Shown here in pieces: positions 16,890 through 26,051 of a DNA stretch of 64,000 bases (position 1 is the stretch's first letter; the number at the start of each line of letters is the position of its first letter). The stretch covers positions 1-64,000 of the forward strand of contig JAUWJD010000010.1 of assembly GCA_030607875.1 (NCBI GenBank). The letters are read 5' to 3'. The DNA comes from Chloroflexota bacterium (lineage in GTDB: Bacteria > Chloroflexota > Anaerolineae > UBA2200). The notes below the pieces were generated by a model. It was given only the letters and a program-made list of their open reading frames with translations. It was not told the origin of the DNA and did no database searches. A program made the translations under genes and the position numbers.

Positions 16890-16918
16890 TTGTAAACCAG
16901 GGCGGGATATGGTATATT
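16890..16918 (+). promoter_or_regulatory. sigma70-type promoter for the DUF2207/radical SAM operon
   Basis: TTGTAA at 16890-16895, a 17-base spacer, and TATATT at 16913-16918 preceded by TGG (extended -10). It lies 32 bases before the DUF2207 start. The flanking 16799-16889 contains repeated AACTGCC words but no gene. Confidence 0.55.
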
Positions 16919-16950: not shown

Positions 16951-18681
16951 ATGAAGAGATGGTTTCTTTTGCTGGGAGCGTTTCTCGTCCTGCTCTGCAC
17001 CTGCGTCACACCCGCGCTAGGGCAGGCCCCAGTCACCCTGAACAAGTCGGAGTACTACATCAATGTCCTTCAGGATGGCCGGCTCCAGGTAACCTATGAA
17101 CTGACCTTCATCGAGCGCGAGGATAGCCGCGATCGCATTCGCGAACTCCCGCCATTGGAATCTCCCCACACGCTGGTGGAAGCCTTCGGCGAAGGTCCAG
17201 ATGGTCGCTTCCAGGTAACCCTGCAGCCCACCGGCAGGGCCAACGAGTATTCCGCCATCTTCGCCCGCCCGACCAAGCTCGGTGGGCAATACTTCATCAC
17301 CATCCGCTACGAAGTGGATCGCTCCGTTTTCGATCCGACAACGATAGATGGCGAGGAGTATCGCGCGATTGGCTGGGCGTCCGGGGAATGGTCGCTGCCC
17401 ATCGAAGTGCTGGCGGCCACCTTCGTCTTGCCTATCGGGTTACCGGCTGACGTCACGAGGCCAGAACAAGTCACGGACAGCCTGGTGAACCAAGCTGGCG
17501 TGAAGGTTGGCGACCTCAGCGCCTTTAACCGTTGGATCTACTTCCCCACGCCGGATTCAACCACGGGCAACAACTGGCTCTCCATCTACATTGAGCAGCG
17601 CAACATTCCGCCTGGTGGTAAGATACAGCCACCCTTCTTCCTGCGGGCCTCCGCCATTGCAGTTACCAGGGACACGCCCATCCCCATCCGAGCCACACCG
17701 ACACCAGAAGCCCCGCCAGTGGCGGCTGGCTGGTCCGCGGCGGCCAAGGCTCTGCTCCTCTGTGTGGCTTTGGGCGTCATCCTGATGGTCGCGCTTGTGA
17801 GCGCACTTGCCCTGCGGCGGCGCAAGAAGGAATCGGTGTATGAACCCCCCGAAATCGAGATCGAAACATTCGAGACCCCCGGTGTTGTCCCGGACCTGAA
17901 CGCCATTGAAACAGCGTTCTACATGGGCAATTCGGCACGTACCATCGCGCTCATCGTCCTCTCGCTGGAGAACCGTGGCGTGCTAACGGTCATCAATCGC
18001 AACCCTCTGCAATTGGAGGTCACCAATCCCGATGAGGGACTGAACGCCTACGAAAAAGCCCTGGTAGACGCTCTCCTCGACGACGGCACCATTGACCAGA
18101 GCAAGATACCTGCCATCCTCAATGCCGTAGCCGCCACGCTGCAGCCCAAGATCTGGAACGCAGATCCCCAGGCCACGAAAGACACTTACGAGCGCAAGAT
18201 TCGCCGGGCCTGGGAGGAATTCGAGCGTGAGCCACGCCCCGCCACTTGGGGCCCAACGATCTGGAACCGACCCCATATCCCCTGGATCCTGATCCATGAT
18301 CGTTACCGGCCACGCAGGACGCTGCTGGAACCTGAGGTCGAGAGAGGGCCATCGCCGTTGGCCCAGGCTGCAGAGGAGCTCGTTACACCCATCGAGAGAA
18401 TGGCTTCAGACATGAGCAGCAGCATTGAGACAACGATCTCACAGGTAGCCACCGGGCTCGAAGCCGGCTGGGCGCGTTTGACCGGTCAGGAGCCGGCCGG
18501 GGCCCCCGGTTACGATGCCTGTCACAGTGCTTGCCACAGCGCCTGCCACAGCGCTTGCGTGCACGATGCTTGCCACAGCGCTTGCGTGCACGATGCCTGC
18601 CACAGCGCCTGCCACAGCGCCTGTGTCTGCCACAGCGCCTGCCACAGCGCCTGCCACAGCGCCTGCGTAGGCCGCTTCTAG
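16951..18681 (+). CDS. DUF2207 membrane protein with CHSA-repeat Cys-rich tail
   Basis: A 576-aa protein. It has a signal peptide (cleavage near ALG, residue 24), an extracytoplasmic beta-rich DUF2207-like domain, a Pro/Thr-rich linker and one membrane helix at about 266-287 followed by RRRKK. A cytoplasmic helical region follows. From residue 524 a tail contains nine CHSA units interrupted by two CVHDA and one CV, with 13 Cys in 49 residues, ending VGRF. The spacing is mostly Cys every fourth residue. Such a tail could bind metal, be crosslinked, or be a substrate for the radical SAM enzyme encoded next. AGGAGGGGTAGTTT precedes the ATG. Nothing visible suggests enzymatic activity. Confidence 0.88.
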   Translation: MKRWFLLLGAFLVLLCTCVTPALGQAPVTLNKSEYYINVLQDGRLQVTYELTFIEREDSRDRIRELPPLESPHTLVEAFGEGPDGRFQVTLQPTGRANEYSAIFARPTKLGGQYFITIRYEVDRSVFDPTTIDGEEYRAIGWASGEWSLPIEVLAATFVLPIGLPADVTRPEQVTDSLVNQAGVKVGDLSAFNRWIYFPTPDSTTGNNWLSIYIEQRNIPPGGKIQPPFFLRASAIAVTRDTPIPIRATPTPEAPPVAAGWSAAAKALLLCVALGVILMVALVSALALRRRKKESVYEPPEIEIETFETPGVVPDLNAIETAFYMGNSARTIALIVLSLENRGVLTVINRNPLQLEVTNPDEGLNAYEKALVDALLDDGTIDQSKIPAILNAVAATLQPKIWNADPQATKDTYERKIRRAWEEFEREPRPATWGPTIWNRPHIPWILIHDRYRPRRTLLEPEVERGPSPLAQAAEELVTPIERMASDMSSSIETTISQVATGLEAGWARLTGQEPAGAPGYDACHSACHSACHSACVHDACHSACVHDACHSACHSACVCHSACHSACHSACVGRF

Positions 18682-18744
18682 ATAGTCGAGTAGTCAGATA
18701 GTCGGATGGTCGAATGGCCAAGGGACTATCGGATCGACAGACCA

Positions 18745-20190
18745 ATGACCGACCTGCAAGCTTTCGCCACTGAACTGGTGGCACAAACCAAAAGCTACAT
18801 TTACATCCGTCCTGAGGACGGGCTGTTCATCCTGCGCCCCAACCGCGTGCACCACCTCAACAAAACCGCCGTGGCCATCCTTTCCAGGCTGTACAACAAT
18901 GGCACGCCTCCAGACGTGGACGTCGTGGTCCGAGAGGTGGCGGCAGAGTACGGCGTGGACCAGGAACGCGTGCGGGGTGACTTGTACAAGCTGCTGGTGA
19001 GCATCGCTGCTCTGCTGCGCAACGACGTCTGCGGTGCGCCGTTGGTCAGGGAGACCCCCTTCGGCACGCACAAACGAGATTTGCCGGTGCTCTCTGAGAT
19101 TGCTGTGACCTATCGCTGCCAGAACAAGTGTGTGTTCTGCTACGCAGAGTCACCTACGCGCGGCCGGCAGGTTCCAGAAATGACCACTGCAGAGGTCAAG
19201 ACGATCATTGACCGCATATTCGACGAAGCACACTGCCCCACTGTCTCCTTCACCGGCGGTGAGCCGACACTGCGCCAAGACCTGCCAGACCTGGTCGCGT
19301 ACGCCAAAGGCAAAGGGATGCGCGTCAACCTGATCACCAATGGACTGCGCTGCGCCGATCCAGAGTACGTCATGGCCCTGAAAGCAGCCGGATTGGACTC
19401 GGCACAGGTCAGCCTCGAAGGACCTAGTCCCGAGCTCCATGATGCGATCGTGCGCCACCCAGGCGCGTTCGCCAAAACCACCCAGGCTGTGCATGTGCTG
19501 AGAGAAGCAAAAATCCACACCCATACCAACACTACCATCTGCCGCAGCAACCGCGACCACCTGCTCGAACTGGTGGACTATATCGCTGATGAGCTGCACT
19601 CGGAATACTTCTCGATGAACGTCATCATCAGCACAGGCACGGCCCTACACCACGACGAAGAGGACGTGACCTACACTGAGGTCGGGCCGCTGATCGAGCA
19701 GGTTCAGCAGAGGGCGAAGGAAAGGGGCACCGAATTGGTGTGGTATTCGCCGGTACCCTATTGCCTCTTCAACCCCGTTGCGCACGGGCTGGGTTCCAAA
19801 TCGTGTGCTTGTGTTGACGGCCTGCTGTCCGTCGCACCTGATGGTGAGCTCCTGCCATGCTCCAGCTACGAGCGTGGCATCGGCAACCTGCTGCACCATC
19901 CTTTCGCCGACCTGTGGTACACCAGACAGGCACACTACTGGCGTGACAAACAGTTCATGCCACCGGTGTGCCGTGACTGCGAAATGAGCCACATCTGTTG
20001 TGGCGCTTGTCCGCTCTATTGGGACTCGCACGGTGGATTCGATGAGCTATCCGCCACTGCGCCAGGCGCTAGCTGGCTGGATACCCTGGTCTGGAAAGCA
20101 AAACGCCGCCTGTGGGGCCAAGCCCACGGTGTTGGATTGAGGCGAGGCGTACAAAGGAGAGCAAATGGCCACAAGAATGAAACTGGCTGA
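18745..20190 (+). CDS. radical SAM/SPASM enzyme with N-terminal PqqD-like domain
   Basis: A 481-aa candidate peptide- or protein-modifying enzyme. The N-terminal ~100 residues (IYIRPEDGLFILRPNRVHHL, then AVAILSRLYNNG) resemble PqqD-type RiPP recognition domains. The radical SAM cluster motif is CQNKCVFC at about 125-132, followed by FTGGEPTL. The C-terminus has SPASM-type Cys groups (SCACVDG, LLPCSSYERG, CRDCEMSHICCGACPLYW) for auxiliary Fe-S clusters. ATG 18745 is preferred; ATG 18706 would add 13 residues encoded by short repeats. It starts 64 bases after the CHSA-tail gene and overlaps the next gene by 26 bases. The nearest plausible substrate is the CHSA tail; that link is inference. Confidence 0.9.
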   Translation: MTDLQAFATELVAQTKSYIYIRPEDGLFILRPNRVHHLNKTAVAILSRLYNNGTPPDVDVVVREVAAEYGVDQERVRGDLYKLLVSIAALLRNDVCGAPLVRETPFGTHKRDLPVLSEIAVTYRCQNKCVFCYAESPTRGRQVPEMTTAEVKTIIDRIFDEAHCPTVSFTGGEPTLRQDLPDLVAYAKGKGMRVNLITNGLRCADPEYVMALKAAGLDSAQVSLEGPSPELHDAIVRHPGAFAKTTQAVHVLREAKIHTHTNTTICRSNRDHLLELVDYIADELHSEYFSMNVIISTGTALHHDEEDVTYTEVGPLIEQVQQRAKERGTELVWYSPVPYCLFNPVAHGLGSKSCACVDGLLSVAPDGELLPCSSYERGIGNLLHHPFADLWYTRQAHYWRDKQFMPPVCRDCEMSHICCGACPLYWDSHGGFDELSATAPGASWLDTLVWKAKRRLWGQAHGVGLRRGVQRRANGHKNETG

Positions 20191-21334
20191 CTTTTACAAA
20201 TACGTTCGCCAGAATCGCAAACGCATCAGCGACATCTACCGCGAGATAGAAGAGATCCAGTATCAGTTCAACGAACTGTACACACGACAGCAGGAAGAGC
20301 GCAACAAGCTCATTGCCGCCTACGCCCCCCAACTGTTGCCCGAAGCGGCCGAGGACTTGCCACCGCAACTGAGGCAGCTTCTCCAAGCCCAGGCGCAAAC
20401 TGAACGCCAAGCGCTCAAGGAAGAAATCGCGACATTGGAAAGTGACATCGCCGACAAGCGACAAAAGGCAGACAAGCTGATCATGGAGGCGCAACGCCAG
20501 GTGGCTTACTTGCGCGAGCAGAATCCCATACTCGATCAGCAAGAGGAAGAGTTAAAAGCTCGCCGCGCATTAATGGAGAGAGAAATTGAGCACTTGGACG
20601 CAGAGCTCAAGCACCTGAGTTGGTTCCCCATCGGTTGGCTGACCAACTTCTTCAAGCGCCGCCGCCTGCGCCGACAGTGCGACCAGTTGGCAGAGAACCT
20701 GGGGTCGATGAACAGCGGCATCCGAAAGGTGCGCGAGACGTGGCAAGCTGAAAAGACGAGGTTGCAGGAGGCCCAGATTGACCTTCAGGGCCAGTGGCAG
20801 GTCGTCAGCGTGGAAACCTCCCAACTCCAGGCCAGGCTGGACTATCTGGTCACCAATATTGATGAGCAGAGCATGCAGAACGCGACATTCAACCTGTTGA
20901 GCAACATGCAGGAATTGCCGGTCGGCGAGGGAGCGTGGAGAGATCACTTGCAGCCCCTGGTCGAGCTCACGCTCAGCCAGGCCCAATACGAGACAAGCCT
21001 GAGGTCAGTGGCCGAAATCCTGGGGCTGCTCAAAGGCCTGGCAGAGGGCATGGACCGCTTTATCCGCAGCGTCAGCACTGTGTATGAGGAACAGCGCAGG
21101 TACAAGCTGCCGTCGCTCACCGTAAACCTGTCCGCCGCGGTTACCTCTTTCCACGCCGTTTGGCCCGAGTTCCAGGCCAAGGTTAAGGACGAGAAGTATC
21201 TGGGCACACAACCCGTGGAGTTTGAGCGGCGCATCAGGGACATTGTGTCGCAGCGACTGGGCGAGGCAGCGATACAGAGGATGTTCAACCACATGGGTGA
21301 TGCGCTAACCAGGGCGACCGAGGCTTGGCAGTAG
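20165..21334 (+). CDS. coiled-coil protein of unknown function
   Basis: A 389-aa protein, predominantly coiled coil at about 20-135 and 150-240 (for example LKEEIATLESDIADKRQKAD). Between them lies a short hydrophobic/basic patch (WFPIGWLTNFFKRRRLRRQ) that could touch the membrane. The C-terminal 130 residues are helical and non-repetitive. It overlaps the radical SAM gene by 26 bases, with AAAGGAG before the ATG, so it belongs to the same operon. I know no family for it. It might scaffold the DUF2207 protein or the maturase. Confidence 0.8.
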   Translation: MATRMKLADFYKYVRQNRKRISDIYREIEEIQYQFNELYTRQQEERNKLIAAYAPQLLPEAAEDLPPQLRQLLQAQAQTERQALKEEIATLESDIADKRQKADKLIMEAQRQVAYLREQNPILDQQEEELKARRALMEREIEHLDAELKHLSWFPIGWLTNFFKRRRLRRQCDQLAENLGSMNSGIRKVRETWQAEKTRLQEAQIDLQGQWQVVSVETSQLQARLDYLVTNIDEQSMQNATFNLLSNMQELPVGEGAWRDHLQPLVELTLSQAQYETSLRSVAEILGLLKGLAEGMDRFIRSVSTVYEEQRRYKLPSLTVNLSAAVTSFHAVWPEFQAKVKDEKYLGTQPVEFERRIRDIVSQRLGEAAIQRMFNHMGDALTRATEAWQ

Positions 21335-21355
21335 CACGGTACAGAAGGGAGAATC

Positions 21356-21847
21356 ATGAAGAGATCTGGGGCCATCATAGCAGTCATCGCTTCCGTGCCC
21401 CTGCTGGTGTTGGGCATCGTTTTTCTCATCGCTGCAATGACCAATCCTGGGCGTATTCTCGTAGCAGCCGCATTCCTGGTACTGGGAGGCGGGCTGCTGA
21501 TCTGGGGGGCCCTGACCTTGCGTCGCCTGGCAGAGATCAGCCCTGAAGCTTTGGCCACCGGCATCGTCGATCTGGCCAGGCGACTGGGTGGCGAGGTCAC
21601 CGTCGCGCAGGTACAGGCTGAATTCCGCATCCCCCAGCACATGGCGCTTGGTACGCTGGAAAAGCTGCGTGGGCATGGGGACACCCAGCGAGAACGCCGC
21701 GGTGACCACTGGGTGTACATCTTCAGAAGTGTCATGCCGGCTAAGGCGATCAAGCGCTGCCCCTACTGCGGCAGCGAATTCGCGATAAAAAGCGCTATGC
21801 GCGAGTGCCCCAATTGCGGCGGCGCTTTGGAGATTGTTAAGGAATAG
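21356..21847 (+). CDS. membrane protein with C-terminal zinc ribbon
   Basis: A 163-aa protein with two N-terminal membrane helices (about residues 5-27 and 33-52), a winged-helix-like middle (EVTVAQVQAEFRIPQHMALG) and a zinc ribbon KRCPYCGSEF and CPNCGG at the C-terminus. The topology would place the ribbon in the cytoplasm. It sits 21 bases after the coiled-coil gene and eight before the peptidase gene. It may sense or bind nucleic acid or protein; nothing more specific is visible. Confidence 0.8.
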   Translation: MKRSGAIIAVIASVPLLVLGIVFLIAAMTNPGRILVAAAFLVLGGGLLIWGALTLRRLAEISPEALATGIVDLARRLGGEVTVAQVQAEFRIPQHMALGTLEKLRGHGDTQRERRGDHWVYIFRSVMPAKAIKRCPYCGSEFAIKSAMRECPNCGGALEIVKE

Positions 21848-21855
21848 CCAAACCC

Positions 21856-23928
21856 ATGTCCTCACGCTCTTCAGGCAGGATCTGGTTCGCTTTTCTGCTT
21901 TTTGCTCTACTTGTCCTTTTCCTCTGTGCAGCATTTGCACTGTGCAGCACCTCGACCCTGCTCTGGCTGCGCCGTGCCAGATCCACGCCTACGCCAACGG
22001 CAGAAGCTGCCCCCACATCTACGGGACTCGACACAGAGACATTGCTGGCCAACACGCACATTCCGCCTCTCGAGCCCTATGACCTGGCTAGACGTCTCAA
22101 GCACACTGCAGAACCATTCCCCACAGCCCTGTTCCGCCACCCTGTAAGCCGGGTGACGCCTGCCTCACCCCTCCAGTACTCCTTAGGAGACCAGGAAAGC
22201 TTCTGGGTCTTGAACCTGGACACCATCGAAGCTTTTCGGGTCCAGGCCACACTTCGTCACATCAGCCCCCACCTGTATATCTGGGTGCAAGATGACATCA
22301 ACGTGCAGCAGGACGCCCTGGAACGTTCTGCAAAGGCTTTTGAGGAACAGTCATACCCAACCGTACGGCATTACTTCGGATCGGAATGGCGCCCCGGCAT
22401 AGACAACGATCCACGGCTGGCAATCCTCAACGCACGCTTTTCAGGAGCCCTGGGCTACTTCTCCAGCGGCGACGAATTCCCCACGGCCGTGATGCCTTAC
22501 AGCAACCAACGAGAGATGTTTTACATCAACCCAGATCACGCACCACCGGGCAGCGCCTCGTACGATGGCACCCTGGCGCACGAGTTTCAGCACATGGTAC
22601 ACTGGTATGCCGATAGCAACGAGGACACCTGGGTCAACGAAGGCGCATCGGAACTGGCCATGCATCTGTGCGGGTACCCCAGAGAGGCCAGGATCAACCT
22701 GTTCGCCCACAATCCCGATACGCAATTGACCACCTGGGACTCGTACAGCACAACGGAACATTACGGCGCGTCTTTCCTCTTCCTGGCCTACTTTGCTGAA
22801 CGCTTCGGGCCGGAGATGACCCGCGAGTTGGTGGCCAATGAGCTGAATGGTATTGCCGGTTTCGAGTCAGTGCTGCAGGCGCACCAGAGCAACCTGTCTT
22901 TCCAGGACCTGTTTGCGGACTGGGTGATTGCCAACTACCTGGATGGGGAAAGCAATGTTGACCACATCACCTATGCGTATGAGGGGCTAGATGTGCAAGT
23001 CCAGGTCGAACGCACCGTATCCAGCTACCCAACGCAAGGCGACGGCACAGTGCACCAATACGCGGCAGACTACATTGAGCTGCAACCGGCCGGCCAAGAC
23101 GTGCGCCTGGATTTCAGCAGCCCTGCAACCACCCGACTGATCCGCAATGAGGCGCACAGTGGGCAGTATCAATGGTGGTCAAACCGCGGTGACAACAGCA
23201 ACATGACTCTGACTCGCTCCTTCGACTTGAGCGGCTTGAGCAAAGCTTCGTTGGACGTCTGGCTGTGGCACGACATCGAGGAAGGGTGGGACTATGCCTA
23301 CGTCGAAGCTTCCACCGATGGCGGTGAGACCTGGAACATACTGCCCGGCAAGTATACCACTATGAAAAACCCGAGCGGCAACAGCTACGGACCAGGATAC
23401 ACCGGCAAGTCGGTCGCAGACCACTCCTCTTCCGGCCAGGGCGATGACACCGCAGGGGATGCCGAGTGGATCCACGAGACGTTCGACCTCTCCTCATTCA
23501 CCGGGCAGCCGGTGTGGATCCGCTTCGAGTACCTGACGGACGACGCCGTCAATCACCCAGGCCTGTGCATCGACGATATCGCCATCCCTGAACTGGGCTA
23601 CTTCTATAACGCCGAGGAAGGGGATGGAGGTTGGCTGGCAGAAGGGTTCATCCGTTCTGACAACACATTGCCACAGCGATACATCATCCAGTTAATTCGC
23701 ATCGCCTCAACCCAAGGAGCACGGGAGGCCGCAGGCAAGGTCACCATCGAACGGCTGTCCTTGCACAGTGATCTGGCACCTTCCGGGCAGGGTGAAGAAC
23801 AAACCGGAAGTTGGACCCTGGGCGGATTCGACGATGGTTTGAAGAAAGCGATACTGGTCATCACCGCAGTGGCACCAAGCACTACCGAGCCAGCCAGTTA
23901 TCACTACGAGATACACCCTGTGGACTAG
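21856..23928 (+). CDS. secreted zinc metallopeptidase (M6/immune-inhibitor-A-like)
   Basis: A 690-aa protein with an N-terminal hydrophobic anchor or signal (residues 9-37), a Pro/Thr linker and a gluzincin-type active site HEFQH at 242-246 with NEGASELAM about 18 residues later. The C-terminal half has beta-sandwich domains with MAM/immune-inhibitor-like motifs (VEASTDGGETWNIL, IDDIAIPEL). It should act outside the membrane, on the same side as the DUF2207 ectodomain. As last gene of the operon it could process the exported products of the locus, or simply be a digestive protease. Confidence 0.87.
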   Translation: MSSRSSGRIWFAFLLFALLVLFLCAAFALCSTSTLLWLRRARSTPTPTAEAAPTSTGLDTETLLANTHIPPLEPYDLARRLKHTAEPFPTALFRHPVSRVTPASPLQYSLGDQESFWVLNLDTIEAFRVQATLRHISPHLYIWVQDDINVQQDALERSAKAFEEQSYPTVRHYFGSEWRPGIDNDPRLAILNARFSGALGYFSSGDEFPTAVMPYSNQREMFYINPDHAPPGSASYDGTLAHEFQHMVHWYADSNEDTWVNEGASELAMHLCGYPREARINLFAHNPDTQLTTWDSYSTTEHYGASFLFLAYFAERFGPEMTRELVANELNGIAGFESVLQAHQSNLSFQDLFADWVIANYLDGESNVDHITYAYEGLDVQVQVERTVSSYPTQGDGTVHQYAADYIELQPAGQDVRLDFSSPATTRLIRNEAHSGQYQWWSNRGDNSNMTLTRSFDLSGLSKASLDVWLWHDIEEGWDYAYVEASTDGGETWNILPGKYTTMKNPSGNSYGPGYTGKSVADHSSSGQGDDTAGDAEWIHETFDLSSFTGQPVWIRFEYLTDDAVNHPGLCIDDIAIPELGYFYNAEEGDGGWLAEGFIRSDNTLPQRYIIQLIRIASTQGAREAAGKVTIERLSLHSDLAPSGQGEEQTGSWTLGGFDDGLKKAILVITAVAPSTTEPASYHYEIHPVD

Positions 23929-24081: not shown

Positions 24082-25953
24082 CTAGCCAGCACCTCCACCG
24101 CCCCCGCCTCCACCACCGCCTCCGCCGCCTCCCCCACCGCTAAAGCCTCCGCTAGAACTGCCCGGCGAACTGGACAACGTACTCGAAGTGGAATTCAGCA
24201 TGCTAAAAAGCCCGTCACTCATGCTTTGCAGCGAACCCATCATGCTGTCGCTGGCGCCCTGCAGGGATGGTAGCTCCGCTCCACCTTGACCGGCGCCTGG
24301 TATTCCACGGTCCACACCGGAGCGTCGCCCGGACCCGCCGCCTCCATAGACGATCACCGGCGGATAAGGATGGTACCATGTCGGGCCTGGCGCGTCTACG
24401 CGGGCGAACTTGGACACCCACTCGCGTTCCAAGCCCAAAGCAATTGCATAGGGCAGGTACTGGTCAAAGATCTCTGCCGCACGTTCAAGGTCGGTGTACT
24501 TCTCGATATCCCTCAGATAGCGCTCAAAGGCACGCCATTGGGCCGCCGCAAGCGCGCCTTCCCTGGTCTTGCGCGGCATCACCTGACCCACGATTGTCAG
24601 TAGCGCACCCACGAGGAAGATGCCTGCGGCAGGACAGAAGGCGGTGTCGACATATACGAGCAGAAACACCATCGAACAGATCGCCAGAACGAACCCGCCC
24701 ACCAACACGCTGATACCCAGGGCCAGGTACCTGTTGCGCGTCGAGTCCGGCCTGCGAGGGAAATAGCCCGCCCGGACAACCTCTTGGTACATCTGATCTT
24801 TGAGTGTGGGAATGGTCTTGTAGAACTTTTCTTTGAGATCCGAGAGACGGATTGTGGTGCGACGCCCGCGGAAGAAACGCTTGAGCAATGTCCGTTCATA
24901 GGAGCGCAGCTTTGTCCCAGTTCCCTGCGACTCGAAGATAAAGTCCCGACGCTTGCCGATCCCCAGAAAGCCTGGTTCTTGCTCTTCCGTGATACTGATA
25001 AGGCCCCGTCGTGCCAGATCCACAATCGTAGCCACGATGTCCTTCATGTCTGCTTTCTCATCCAACAGCGTGCCGACCAGACCAGGCGGGAGGTCAGATG
25101 GCGGTTCCGCGAGATAGTCCGCCACCACTCCAACCGGAACATCGCGGCCCCGTGTGTACCATAACAAGTACGCACCGACAAAGCCAGCGATGAGGATCAA
25201 GAGCCCCAACGCGCCGAGCCCAAGGTTCGCCAGACCACGGTAACGCGCGTTATAGTCAGCCAGCCGATCCTCCCTCACCTGCCAAGCTGGAGCCTGTCCC
25301 TGAACAATGCCGTGCGGGAACTGTACACGAACCTCCAGTTCCTGGCCGGCCGGGATGTTTCCAGCGGTAAAGACCACCGTGCTCCCATCCACAATCTCCA
25401 CGTCAGCATCCGTGAAATAGGCAGCTACCTTGAGGTCCTCGCGCCAGATTCCAGGCGGCAGATGCACCGTCACCCGTGAGGAGCGCACCGGAAAGCTCCT
25501 ATCCGCGAACACAGCCTTCCACCACAACTGATCGCCACCCTCGTAAGAGCGCAAACCTCCCTTGACGGTATAGGCGATGGTGAAGGTGCGCGAATCATCG
25601 CTGGTGTAGGGATAGTACCAGGTGATGCGAAAATCCCCATCCTCTCGCAAAGTGGTAAAGGCGCCGGGATCCTTGCTGCCACGGCGATATTCCATGCCCC
25701 CTTCACTCACACTCACGTCTGTAACCGAATCAAGGCGAGCCATGGGAATGTCACGATAGGCAAAGTGGAAGCTGCCCCAGGTGAACACGAACTTTTGTGT
25801 TTCTACAATACGGATGTCCGAGTTCTCCAGCACCGTGATATCTACATCGATAAACTCCCAGTAGTACTGCTTGTCCTGTGCCCAAACCGTCTGCCCTACG
25901 GCGGCACAAAAAACAAGGGCGAGCAGCAAGCTGAGTATTTTGCGCCTATCCAT
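24082..25953 (-). CDS. DUF2207 membrane protein with poly-Gly tail
   Basis: A 623-aa protein from ATG 25953 (AAAGGACTGAGG upstream; ATG 25971 would add six residues). It has a signal peptide (ending near VWAQ), a DUF2207 ectodomain with VFTWGSFHFAYRDIPM, a membrane helix (LGLGALGLLILIAGFVGAYL) and a cytoplasmic region with a winged-helix-like segment (IVATIVDLARRGLISI). Two further helices follow, and a tail with a long uninterrupted Gly run ending AG. Gly-rich tails are common in this family. It is a paralogue of the CHSA-tail protein and convergent to its operon. Confidence 0.88.
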   Translation of the reverse strand: MDRRKILSLLLALVFCAAVGQTVWAQDKQYYWEFIDVDITVLENSDIRIVETQKFVFTWGSFHFAYRDIPMARLDSVTDVSVSEGGMEYRRGSKDPGAFTTLREDGDFRITWYYPYTSDDSRTFTIAYTVKGGLRSYEGGDQLWWKAVFADRSFPVRSSRVTVHLPPGIWREDLKVAAYFTDADVEIVDGSTVVFTAGNIPAGQELEVRVQFPHGIVQGQAPAWQVREDRLADYNARYRGLANLGLGALGLLILIAGFVGAYLLWYTRGRDVPVGVVADYLAEPPSDLPPGLVGTLLDEKADMKDIVATIVDLARRGLISITEEQEPGFLGIGKRRDFIFESQGTGTKLRSYERTLLKRFFRGRRTTIRLSDLKEKFYKTIPTLKDQMYQEVVRAGYFPRRPDSTRNRYLALGISVLVGGFVLAICSMVFLLVYVDTAFCPAAGIFLVGALLTIVGQVMPRKTREGALAAAQWRAFERYLRDIEKYTDLERAAEIFDQYLPYAIALGLEREWVSKFARVDAPGPTWYHPYPPVIVYGGGGSGRRSGVDRGIPGAGQGGAELPSLQGASDSMMGSLQSMSDGLFSMLNSTSSTLSSSPGSSSGGFSGGGGGGGGGGGGGGGGAG

Positions 25954-26051
25954 CCTCAGTCCTTTCTCCACGCACTACCAAGACACACCGGCATCGCCTG
26001 AATGTAGCTCGATGACAGTCTACCTCACTACGAAACAACAGAAGCGAGCCA

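Follow-up and report, generated by a model that had tools for sequence, protein, structure and literature searches.

A conserved Cys/His-repeat tail on a membrane protein as the proposed substrate of its neighbouring PqqD-radical SAM-SPASM enzyme

What does a radical S-adenosylmethionine (SAM) enzyme with a peptide-recognition domain do directly beside a membrane protein that ends in a string of CHSA tetrapeptides? The question is raised by positions 16,951 to 23,928 of a 64,000-nucleotide stretch of a Chloroflexota genome (assembly GCA_030607875.1, contig JAUWJD010000010.1, positions 1 to 64,000; the whole stretch is hereafter called the window). An earlier note, made from the letters alone, had described here a protein closing in nine CHSA units and, as the very next gene, a fusion of a PqqD-like domain, a radical SAM core and SPASM-type Cys groups. 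Both descriptions hold. The open reading frame (ORF) of the tail protein ends in YDACHSACHSACHSACVHDACHSACVHDACHSACHSACVCHSACHSACHSACVGRF, with nine CHSA units and 13 Cys (C524 to C572) over the 49 residues before VGRF; the enzyme ORF starts 24 bp after its end, and all three domains score above their Pfam cut-offs. We consider it probable that the adjacent enzyme has the CHSA tail as its substrate and would modify it in the cytoplasm.

The CHSA tail and its enzyme across genomes

The earlier note staked its idea on tail and enzyme occurring together across genomes, and this they clearly do. A degenerate DNA pattern for ACHxACHxACVCHxAC, searched in one genome per species (84,980 species), was found in 49 genomes: 24 Thorarchaeota, 2 Lokiarchaeota, 15 Chloroflexota, 4 Caldisericota, 2 Spirochaetota and 2 Armatimonadota metagenome-assembled genomes (MAGs). 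It forms the C-terminus of a protein in 49 of 49, with no match inside an unrelated protein, and the enzyme (44-82% identity) is present in 47 of them. The two tail genomes that lack it are explained by assembly breaks: in one (G091) a 100-N scaffold join breaks the tail gene exactly where the enzyme is expected, and in the other (G086, a 2.2-Mb genome) the tail gene reaches to within about 1 kb of the contig end. A Thorarchaeota chromosome described as complete (CP070658.1, L215) contains 100-N joins, one of which crosses the tail gene and fuses an unrelated membrane-protein ORF to it.

A set of 298 genomes of the window's class, Anaerolineae, in which the enzyme family was called at E <= 1e-45, gave the enzyme family in 76 genomes, the exact CHSA pattern in 22 and a second type of Cys tail (described below) in 27. 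All 48 Cys-tail genomes lie within the 76, and none of the 222 enzyme-less genomes has a tail (hypergeometric p = 6e-36 by genome and 1e-25 by genus, both uncorrected for phylogeny). Where the enzyme is close (54-100% identity), a CHSA tail was found in 31 of 34 genomes, nine of these tails being variants missed by the exact pattern, and the loci of the remaining three are cut by contig ends. The Asgard class carries the enzyme in 28 of 47 genomes; of five additional ones among these, four possess the tail, which lies nearby in three and at a distance of about 6 kb in one, and the fifth allowed no decision. The two genes are same-strand neighbours in bacteria and stand head-to-head in Asgard archaea, and in four genomes (G066, G083, G142 and G211) both are present but unlinked; the co-occurrence is therefore independent of one inherited gene order and, since it persists even without linkage, amounts to more than hitch-hiking. 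In a maximum-likelihood tree of the enzyme, which has a long stem, a well-supported Asgard clade stands apart from a bacterial clade (Spirochaetota, Caldisericota, Armatimonadota and Chloroflexota); an ancient origin would fit this history, and so would an ancient transfer.

The tail is conserved at the level of single residues. The segments between its Cys, compared over 67 distinct tails, are nearly always HSA (526), V (58), VHDA (57), VSHDA (51) or VHSA (20); every segment of at least three residues contains His (67 of 67 tails), and His and Ser are no less constant than Cys. Block order and the positions of the V interruptions are fixed across Bacteria and Archaea, with VSGG[FY]R as the Asgard end and V[SG]x[FV] as the bacterial one. 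When aligned with the tail of the window, those of other Chloroflexota, Armatimonadota and Caldisericota show 98-100% identity over bodies of 33-72%, and those of Spirochaetota and Asgard 82-83% (whole blocks are gained or lost) over bodies of 23-30%; in a 16-sequence alignment of the protein, 36 of the 57 invariant columns fall in the tail. Synonymous differences are saturated (pS 0.56-1.16), and 25 tails that share 30 identical residues differ on average at 16.6 of the 30 codons, including AGY/TCN serine switches, to which part of the apparent nonsynonymous difference (pN) is also due. Judged from these codon comparisons, the tail is under strong purifying selection. The repeat was found nowhere else in its own genome, and the tail has no match among PDB sequences. 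One family (f37; L148, L149, L151-L153) has tails without the VCH-junction Cys or without the first block, with 11-12 Cys instead of 13.

Enzyme, substrate and possible chemistry

From its sequence and its structural model, the enzyme is predicted to be of the peptide-maturase type. PF04055 (Radical_SAM) scores 97.9 bits and SPASM (PF13186) 30.6 bits against a cut-off of 21.5. There are seven conserved auxiliary Cys, C353 lying upstream, and enzymes of the CHSA group (group A) lack the final Cys of the canonical SPASM order, which could leave an open site on an auxiliary cluster. PqqD-like domains are peptide-recognition modules, and the domain was also detected in Asgard and group-B enzymes. 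The nearest solved folds of the enzyme model are SkfB, SuiB (with SuiA), CteB, anSME, TigE and PqqE, with EpeE matching as well; SkfB is also the best PDB match by sequence. Assignment to an NCBIfam maturase equivalog (SkfB, PqqE, AhbD, ACGX, HxsC or PapB) was rejected, all scores lying below the cut-offs: AhbD, the best, reaches 136.5 of 500 bits, PqqE 112 of 381, ACGX (TIGR04340) 99 of 400 and HxsC 79 of 268.

On the substrate side, the tail is predicted to be cytoplasmic because the transmembrane (TM) helix is followed by RRRKKE (positive-inside). Most carriers examined run from a signal peptide or N-terminal TM through an ectodomain, one or few TMs and a cytoplasmic part to the tail, and where enough sequence is present they are 570-1023-aa relatives of the window protein. 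DUF2207 proteins are described in the same orientation, their large N-part outside the cell and their C-part inside (PMC10457818). The AlphaFold model is confident for the ectodomain, has a long helix at residues 469-511 and falls below 50 in predicted local distance difference test (pLDDT) over the tail, an unreliable value because of which we claim no structure for it. The DUF2207 label that the earlier note had given the protein stands only as a distant relation: at 22.2 bits against PF09972 (gathering cut-off 24.4) the protein falls outside the family, and since a Caldisericota homologue passes at 33.3 bits, a distant relation is likely. Against TIGR04222 (near_uncomplex) of NCBIfam it scores 33.1 bits, below the cut-off of 43, and that profile matched none of the other tail carriers scanned; filing the protein under either family was rejected, as the curated cut-offs are missed.

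Proteins that end in CACACACAGCACACAGGGR or CACACAGCACACACAGGGR are the partners of a sister enzyme (30-37% identity), and the cytoplasmic domains of CHSA- and second-tail proteins are homologous (hhalign 99.6%). The tail CACACACAGCACACAGGGR has no His; Cys is the residue common to the two tail families, CHSA and CACA. Tails of the CACACACAGCACACAGGGR type are preceded by a stretch LPxLPGxxFA...FTxxVTxxTNPxP that is conserved amid variable linkers, and the pre-tail helix of the window protein lies at the equivalent position. In one genome (G053, L064:990-4409) a 1139-aa Ser/Thr kinase-AAA protein ends in this pre-tail stretch and CACACACAGCACACAGGGR, directly upstream of a PqqD-radical SAM enzyme. 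We read pre-tail segment and tail as a portable unit, which would consist of a recognition segment and a modified tail.

Other arrangements were met among these loci. An Armatimonadetes MAG (G077; L193, L214) holds both the CHSA-tail and the CACA-tail system, and at L159, L161, L165-L167, L169 and L214 two successive radical SAM/SPASM genes stand before or beside a protein with a CACAGCACACACAGGGR-type tail, the second enzyme of which may be another maturase. In family f36 (L157:7245-7604, L158:7349-7693) a small TM/Zn-ribbon protein lies directly upstream of a related radical SAM enzyme, with no Cys-tail protein in the stretch read.

Collectively, co-occurrence, the predicted inside topology and the maturase folds support the proposal of the earlier note that the tail is a substrate on the cytoplasmic side, while the modification and its chemistry are what we infer from them. 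The locus would be a membrane-protein counterpart of a system for ribosomally synthesized and post-translationally modified peptides (RiPPs), although a strict RiPP precursor is short, made of leader and core, and yields a product that is set free, and the carriers here are large membrane proteins. The PqqD-like domain of the enzyme would dock on the tail protein, most likely on the stretch immediately ahead of the tail. The CHSA units would then be modified one after another on the cytoplasmic face, by means of the radical SAM cluster and the auxiliary clusters of the SPASM region. The constancy of the tail suggests that a fixed three-dimensional module might result, or a cofactor, for instance a redox or metal site; the product would be a rigid, conserved and membrane-anchored Cys/His module and not a secreted antibiotic.

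Several points weigh against this proposal. Co-occurrence is by itself no proof of chemistry, and tail and enzyme could be two components of one complex without modification. An Asgard genome (G348) has the enzyme without a tail on a 21.7-kb contig, as do four genomes of the sister group (G011, G236, G272 and G292) in the stretch read. Moreover, the sequence of the pre-tail segment differs between bacteria and Asgard, so that no common recognition motif emerges for group A.

As to the chemistry, thioether or other Cys-based crosslinks are the likeliest outcome, though our expectation is tentative and falls somewhat below an even chance, also for thioethers (Cys S to carbon) specifically. SPASM enzymes perform epimerisation, formylglycine oxidation, and Cys-His and C-C bond chemistries. 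It is a serious possibility, though one we would not bet on, that the enzyme modifies the tail in such another way, by epimerisation (EpeE-like), by making formylglycine from Ser or Cys as anSME does, by linking Cys to His or by forming a C-C bond of the TvgB type (see below). The presence of anSME, EpeE and TigE among the fold matches and the constancy of H and S speak for it, whereas the sharing of Cys by CHSA and CACA tails, together with the best sequence and fold matches, the sactisynthase SkfB and SuiB, argues for crosslinks. Two other ideas were considered. Attachment of c-type haem (CX3CH, from CHSACH) was set aside, as the tail is predicted to be cytoplasmic and adjacent sites would share a Cys; ovothiol-type Cys-His chemistry came up as a DUF2207 gene lies near ovoA, and the source paper concludes that there is no link.

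The main rival leaves the tail unmodified: its Cys and His would directly bind metal or iron-sulfur clusters, in the manner of a metallothionein or a cluster store, and the enzyme would be a client or partner, for example a cluster recipient. The 11 His beside the 13 Cys, a His in all longer inter-Cys segments, as metal ligands would show, and a predicted location in the reducing cytoplasm speak for this account. Yet other radical SAM enzymes need no such partner, the association is limited to one PqqD-fused subfamily, and the His-free sister tail still pairs with its enzyme; hence we regard direct binding as unlikely. Metal binding after modification is compatible with the tail being the enzyme's substrate.

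It is very improbable that the operon serves the cell envelope or proteolysis in Chloroflexota, with the metallopeptidase as effector and the tail as a protein-protein interaction tag. The five-gene order is retained in many Chloroflexota families, and in Streptococcus mutans a DUF2207 protein influences both stress tolerance and biofilm (PMC10457818), but tail and enzyme persist without the metallopeptidase in Caldisericota, Spirochaetota and Asgard. That the tail is a fast-evolving in-frame DNA minisatellite, with the enzyme acting on something else, is refuted by the codon analysis: the window copy is indeed a 12-bp DNA repeat with long identical stretches, but across genomes the residues and block order stay while the codons change, which leaves this reading next to no chance.

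Accompanying genes and layout of the locus

The three genes that the earlier note had placed after the enzyme are all present (Table 1), with one 26-bp overlap and otherwise gaps of 8-21 bp. Its further suggestion, that these genes help to display or process the product, finds no support in that form. The InhA-like metallopeptidase was found in Chloroflexota operons only, with none at Caldisericota, Spirochaetota or Asgard loci, and it is predicted to be extracytoplasmic, i.e., across the membrane from where the tail lies. Only bacteria have the coiled-coil gene, which is kept in the operon in Chloroflexota, Caldisericota and Spirochaetota and also found beside the Armatimonadota enzyme. A distant homologue of the TM-winged-helix-Zn-ribbon protein lies near most Asgard pairs (hhalign 95.8%), so that what Asgard share with the operon is the tail protein, the enzyme and, more loosely, this protein, and nothing else. 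Because of this uneven spread among phyla, we take the tail protein and the enzyme as the core and the rest as lineage-specific or loosely attached.

Table 1. Features of the tail-protein operon in the window
Feature	Position	Strand	Details
Tail-bearing membrane protein, 576 aa	16951..18681	+	signal peptide, ectodomain, one TM, cytoplasmic TIGR04222/DUF2207-like domain, helix, Cys tail
Ectodomain, aa 28-232	17032..17646	+	beta-rich; AlphaFold pLDDT mostly >90; resembles M1 aminopeptidase N-domain
Single TM helix, aa 263-289, then RRRKKE	17737..17817	+	hydropathy 2.89
Pre-tail helix, aa 469-511, candidate leader-like recognition segment (putative function)	18355..18483	+	AlphaFold model
CHSA tail, aa 522-576, proposed substrate: 9 CHSA units, 13 Cys, 11 His, VGRF end	18514..18678	+	
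PqqD-radical SAM-SPASM enzyme, 494 aa	18706..20190	+	
PqqD-like domain (RiPP recognition element, RRE), aa 32-104	18799..19017	+	PF05402 32.8 bits (cut-off 23.4); three strands then three helices in model
Radical SAM cluster motif CQNKCVFC (C138, C142, C145)	19117..19140	+	invariant in 77 aligned enzymes
SPASM region with C353, C367, C385, C422, C425, C431, C435	19762..20010	+	auxiliary Cys invariant or near-invariant
Coiled-coil protein, 389 aa	20165..21334	+	
TM + winged-helix + Zn-ribbon protein, 163 aa	21356..21847	+	
HExxH metallopeptidase with InhA-like MAM domain, membrane-anchored/secreted, 690 aa	21856..23928	+	

The promoter that had been proposed before the gene set did not survive: the promoter-like site at 16890-16918 (9/12) is no better than those in shuffled sequence, and since it is one of four such sites in the region against 2.4 expected by shuffling, it is no evidence. 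Convergent to the operon, at 24082-25971 (-), lies the genome's only DUF2207 protein above threshold, with a poly-Gly tail without Cys; it is retained at the same place in related families.

Asgard loci have companions of their own. A conserved protein of HExxH type (HEYEHH), with no Pfam match, is encoded downstream of the tail gene (L196:4079-5317, L202:6588-7808) and adjoined by a calcineurin-like phosphoesterase, and near the Asgard pair a TM-double-winged-helix-Zn-ribbon protein (L195:10387-11226, L196:11080-11793) weakly resembles the DDRGK and UFM1 E3 ligase domains of Pfam.

Relation to known systems and biological meaning

No Pfam or NCBIfam family describes the CHSA or the second tail. 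The ACGX, CXXX-repeat and His-Xaa-Ser (Hxs) systems of Haft and Basu reportedly combine short Cys/His repeats with radical SAM/SPASM enzymes; they differ from the present one in precursor architecture and taxonomic range, and the window enzyme is far below the ACGX and HxsC cut-offs. With SkfB (a sactisynthase), SuiB (a lysine-tryptophan cyclase) and CteB (the SCIFF thioether enzyme), the enzyme shares the series of RRE, radical SAM and SPASM; unlike theirs, its partner is a membrane protein of 560-1023 aa and not a short precursor peptide, and the last SPASM Cys is absent. In the TvgA/TvgB system a radical SAM enzyme modifies each TVGG tetrapeptide repeat to give cyclopropylglycine (PMC9062424). 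We likewise propose a C-terminal tetrapeptide repeat as the target of a radical SAM enzyme, with CHSA in place of TVGG and a membrane protein where TvgA is a small soluble precursor.

Among membrane proteins, the DUF2207 family (PF09972/PF20990; S. mutans SMU.243, PMC10457818, and the neighbour at 24082-25971) has the same succession of extracellular N-domain, TM, intracellular C-part and low-complexity tail, but the tail here is of Cys/His and not Gly/Ser, there is one TM with a signal peptide, and the partner is a radical SAM enzyme. TIGR04222 membrane proteins with periplasmic Cys tails are candidate substrates of MNIO (DUF692) enzymes (PMC12452194), and the likeness is evident: a large membrane protein, a low-complexity Cys-containing C-terminus and an adjacent peptide-modifying metalloenzyme. 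However, the enzyme here is of the radical SAM-SPASM type, the tail is predicted to be cytoplasmic instead of periplasmic and is near-invariant where the others are variable in Gly/Ser/Cys, and it occurs in Asgard archaea; no MNIO enzyme was found among the operon and flanking proteins scanned. The CHSA system is thus distinct from the TIGR04222/MNIO idea in enzyme, topology, conservation and range. The open literature gave no paper pairing radical SAM with DUF2207, or with an ACGX or CXXX repeat, and the exact tail strings were absent from the 5.39 million papers of the open PMC literature; as subscription papers and preprints fall outside this search, priority is uncertain.

RiPP-type radical SAM systems normally use short, variable peptides that become natural products. 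Here, a large integral membrane protein appears to provide the substrate with its C-terminus, near-identical over five groups while the body falls to about a quarter identity, and this constancy points to a shared structure or cofactor rather than an antibiotic. Possibly, though we would put it below even odds, the enzyme turns the CHSA (or CACA-G) tail into a peptide-derived redox or metal centre on the cytoplasmic side of the membrane, with a housekeeping role in several anaerobic bacterial phyla and in Asgard archaea. A search rule built on the pre-tail segment and the Cys tail already detects the module on a protein kinase. If the tail is indeed the enzyme's substrate, radical SAM protein modification would extend to membrane-anchored modules, Asgard archaea would gain a conserved peptide-maturation system, and the CHSA tail, as a simple repeat, would be a convenient substrate for working out the chemistry.

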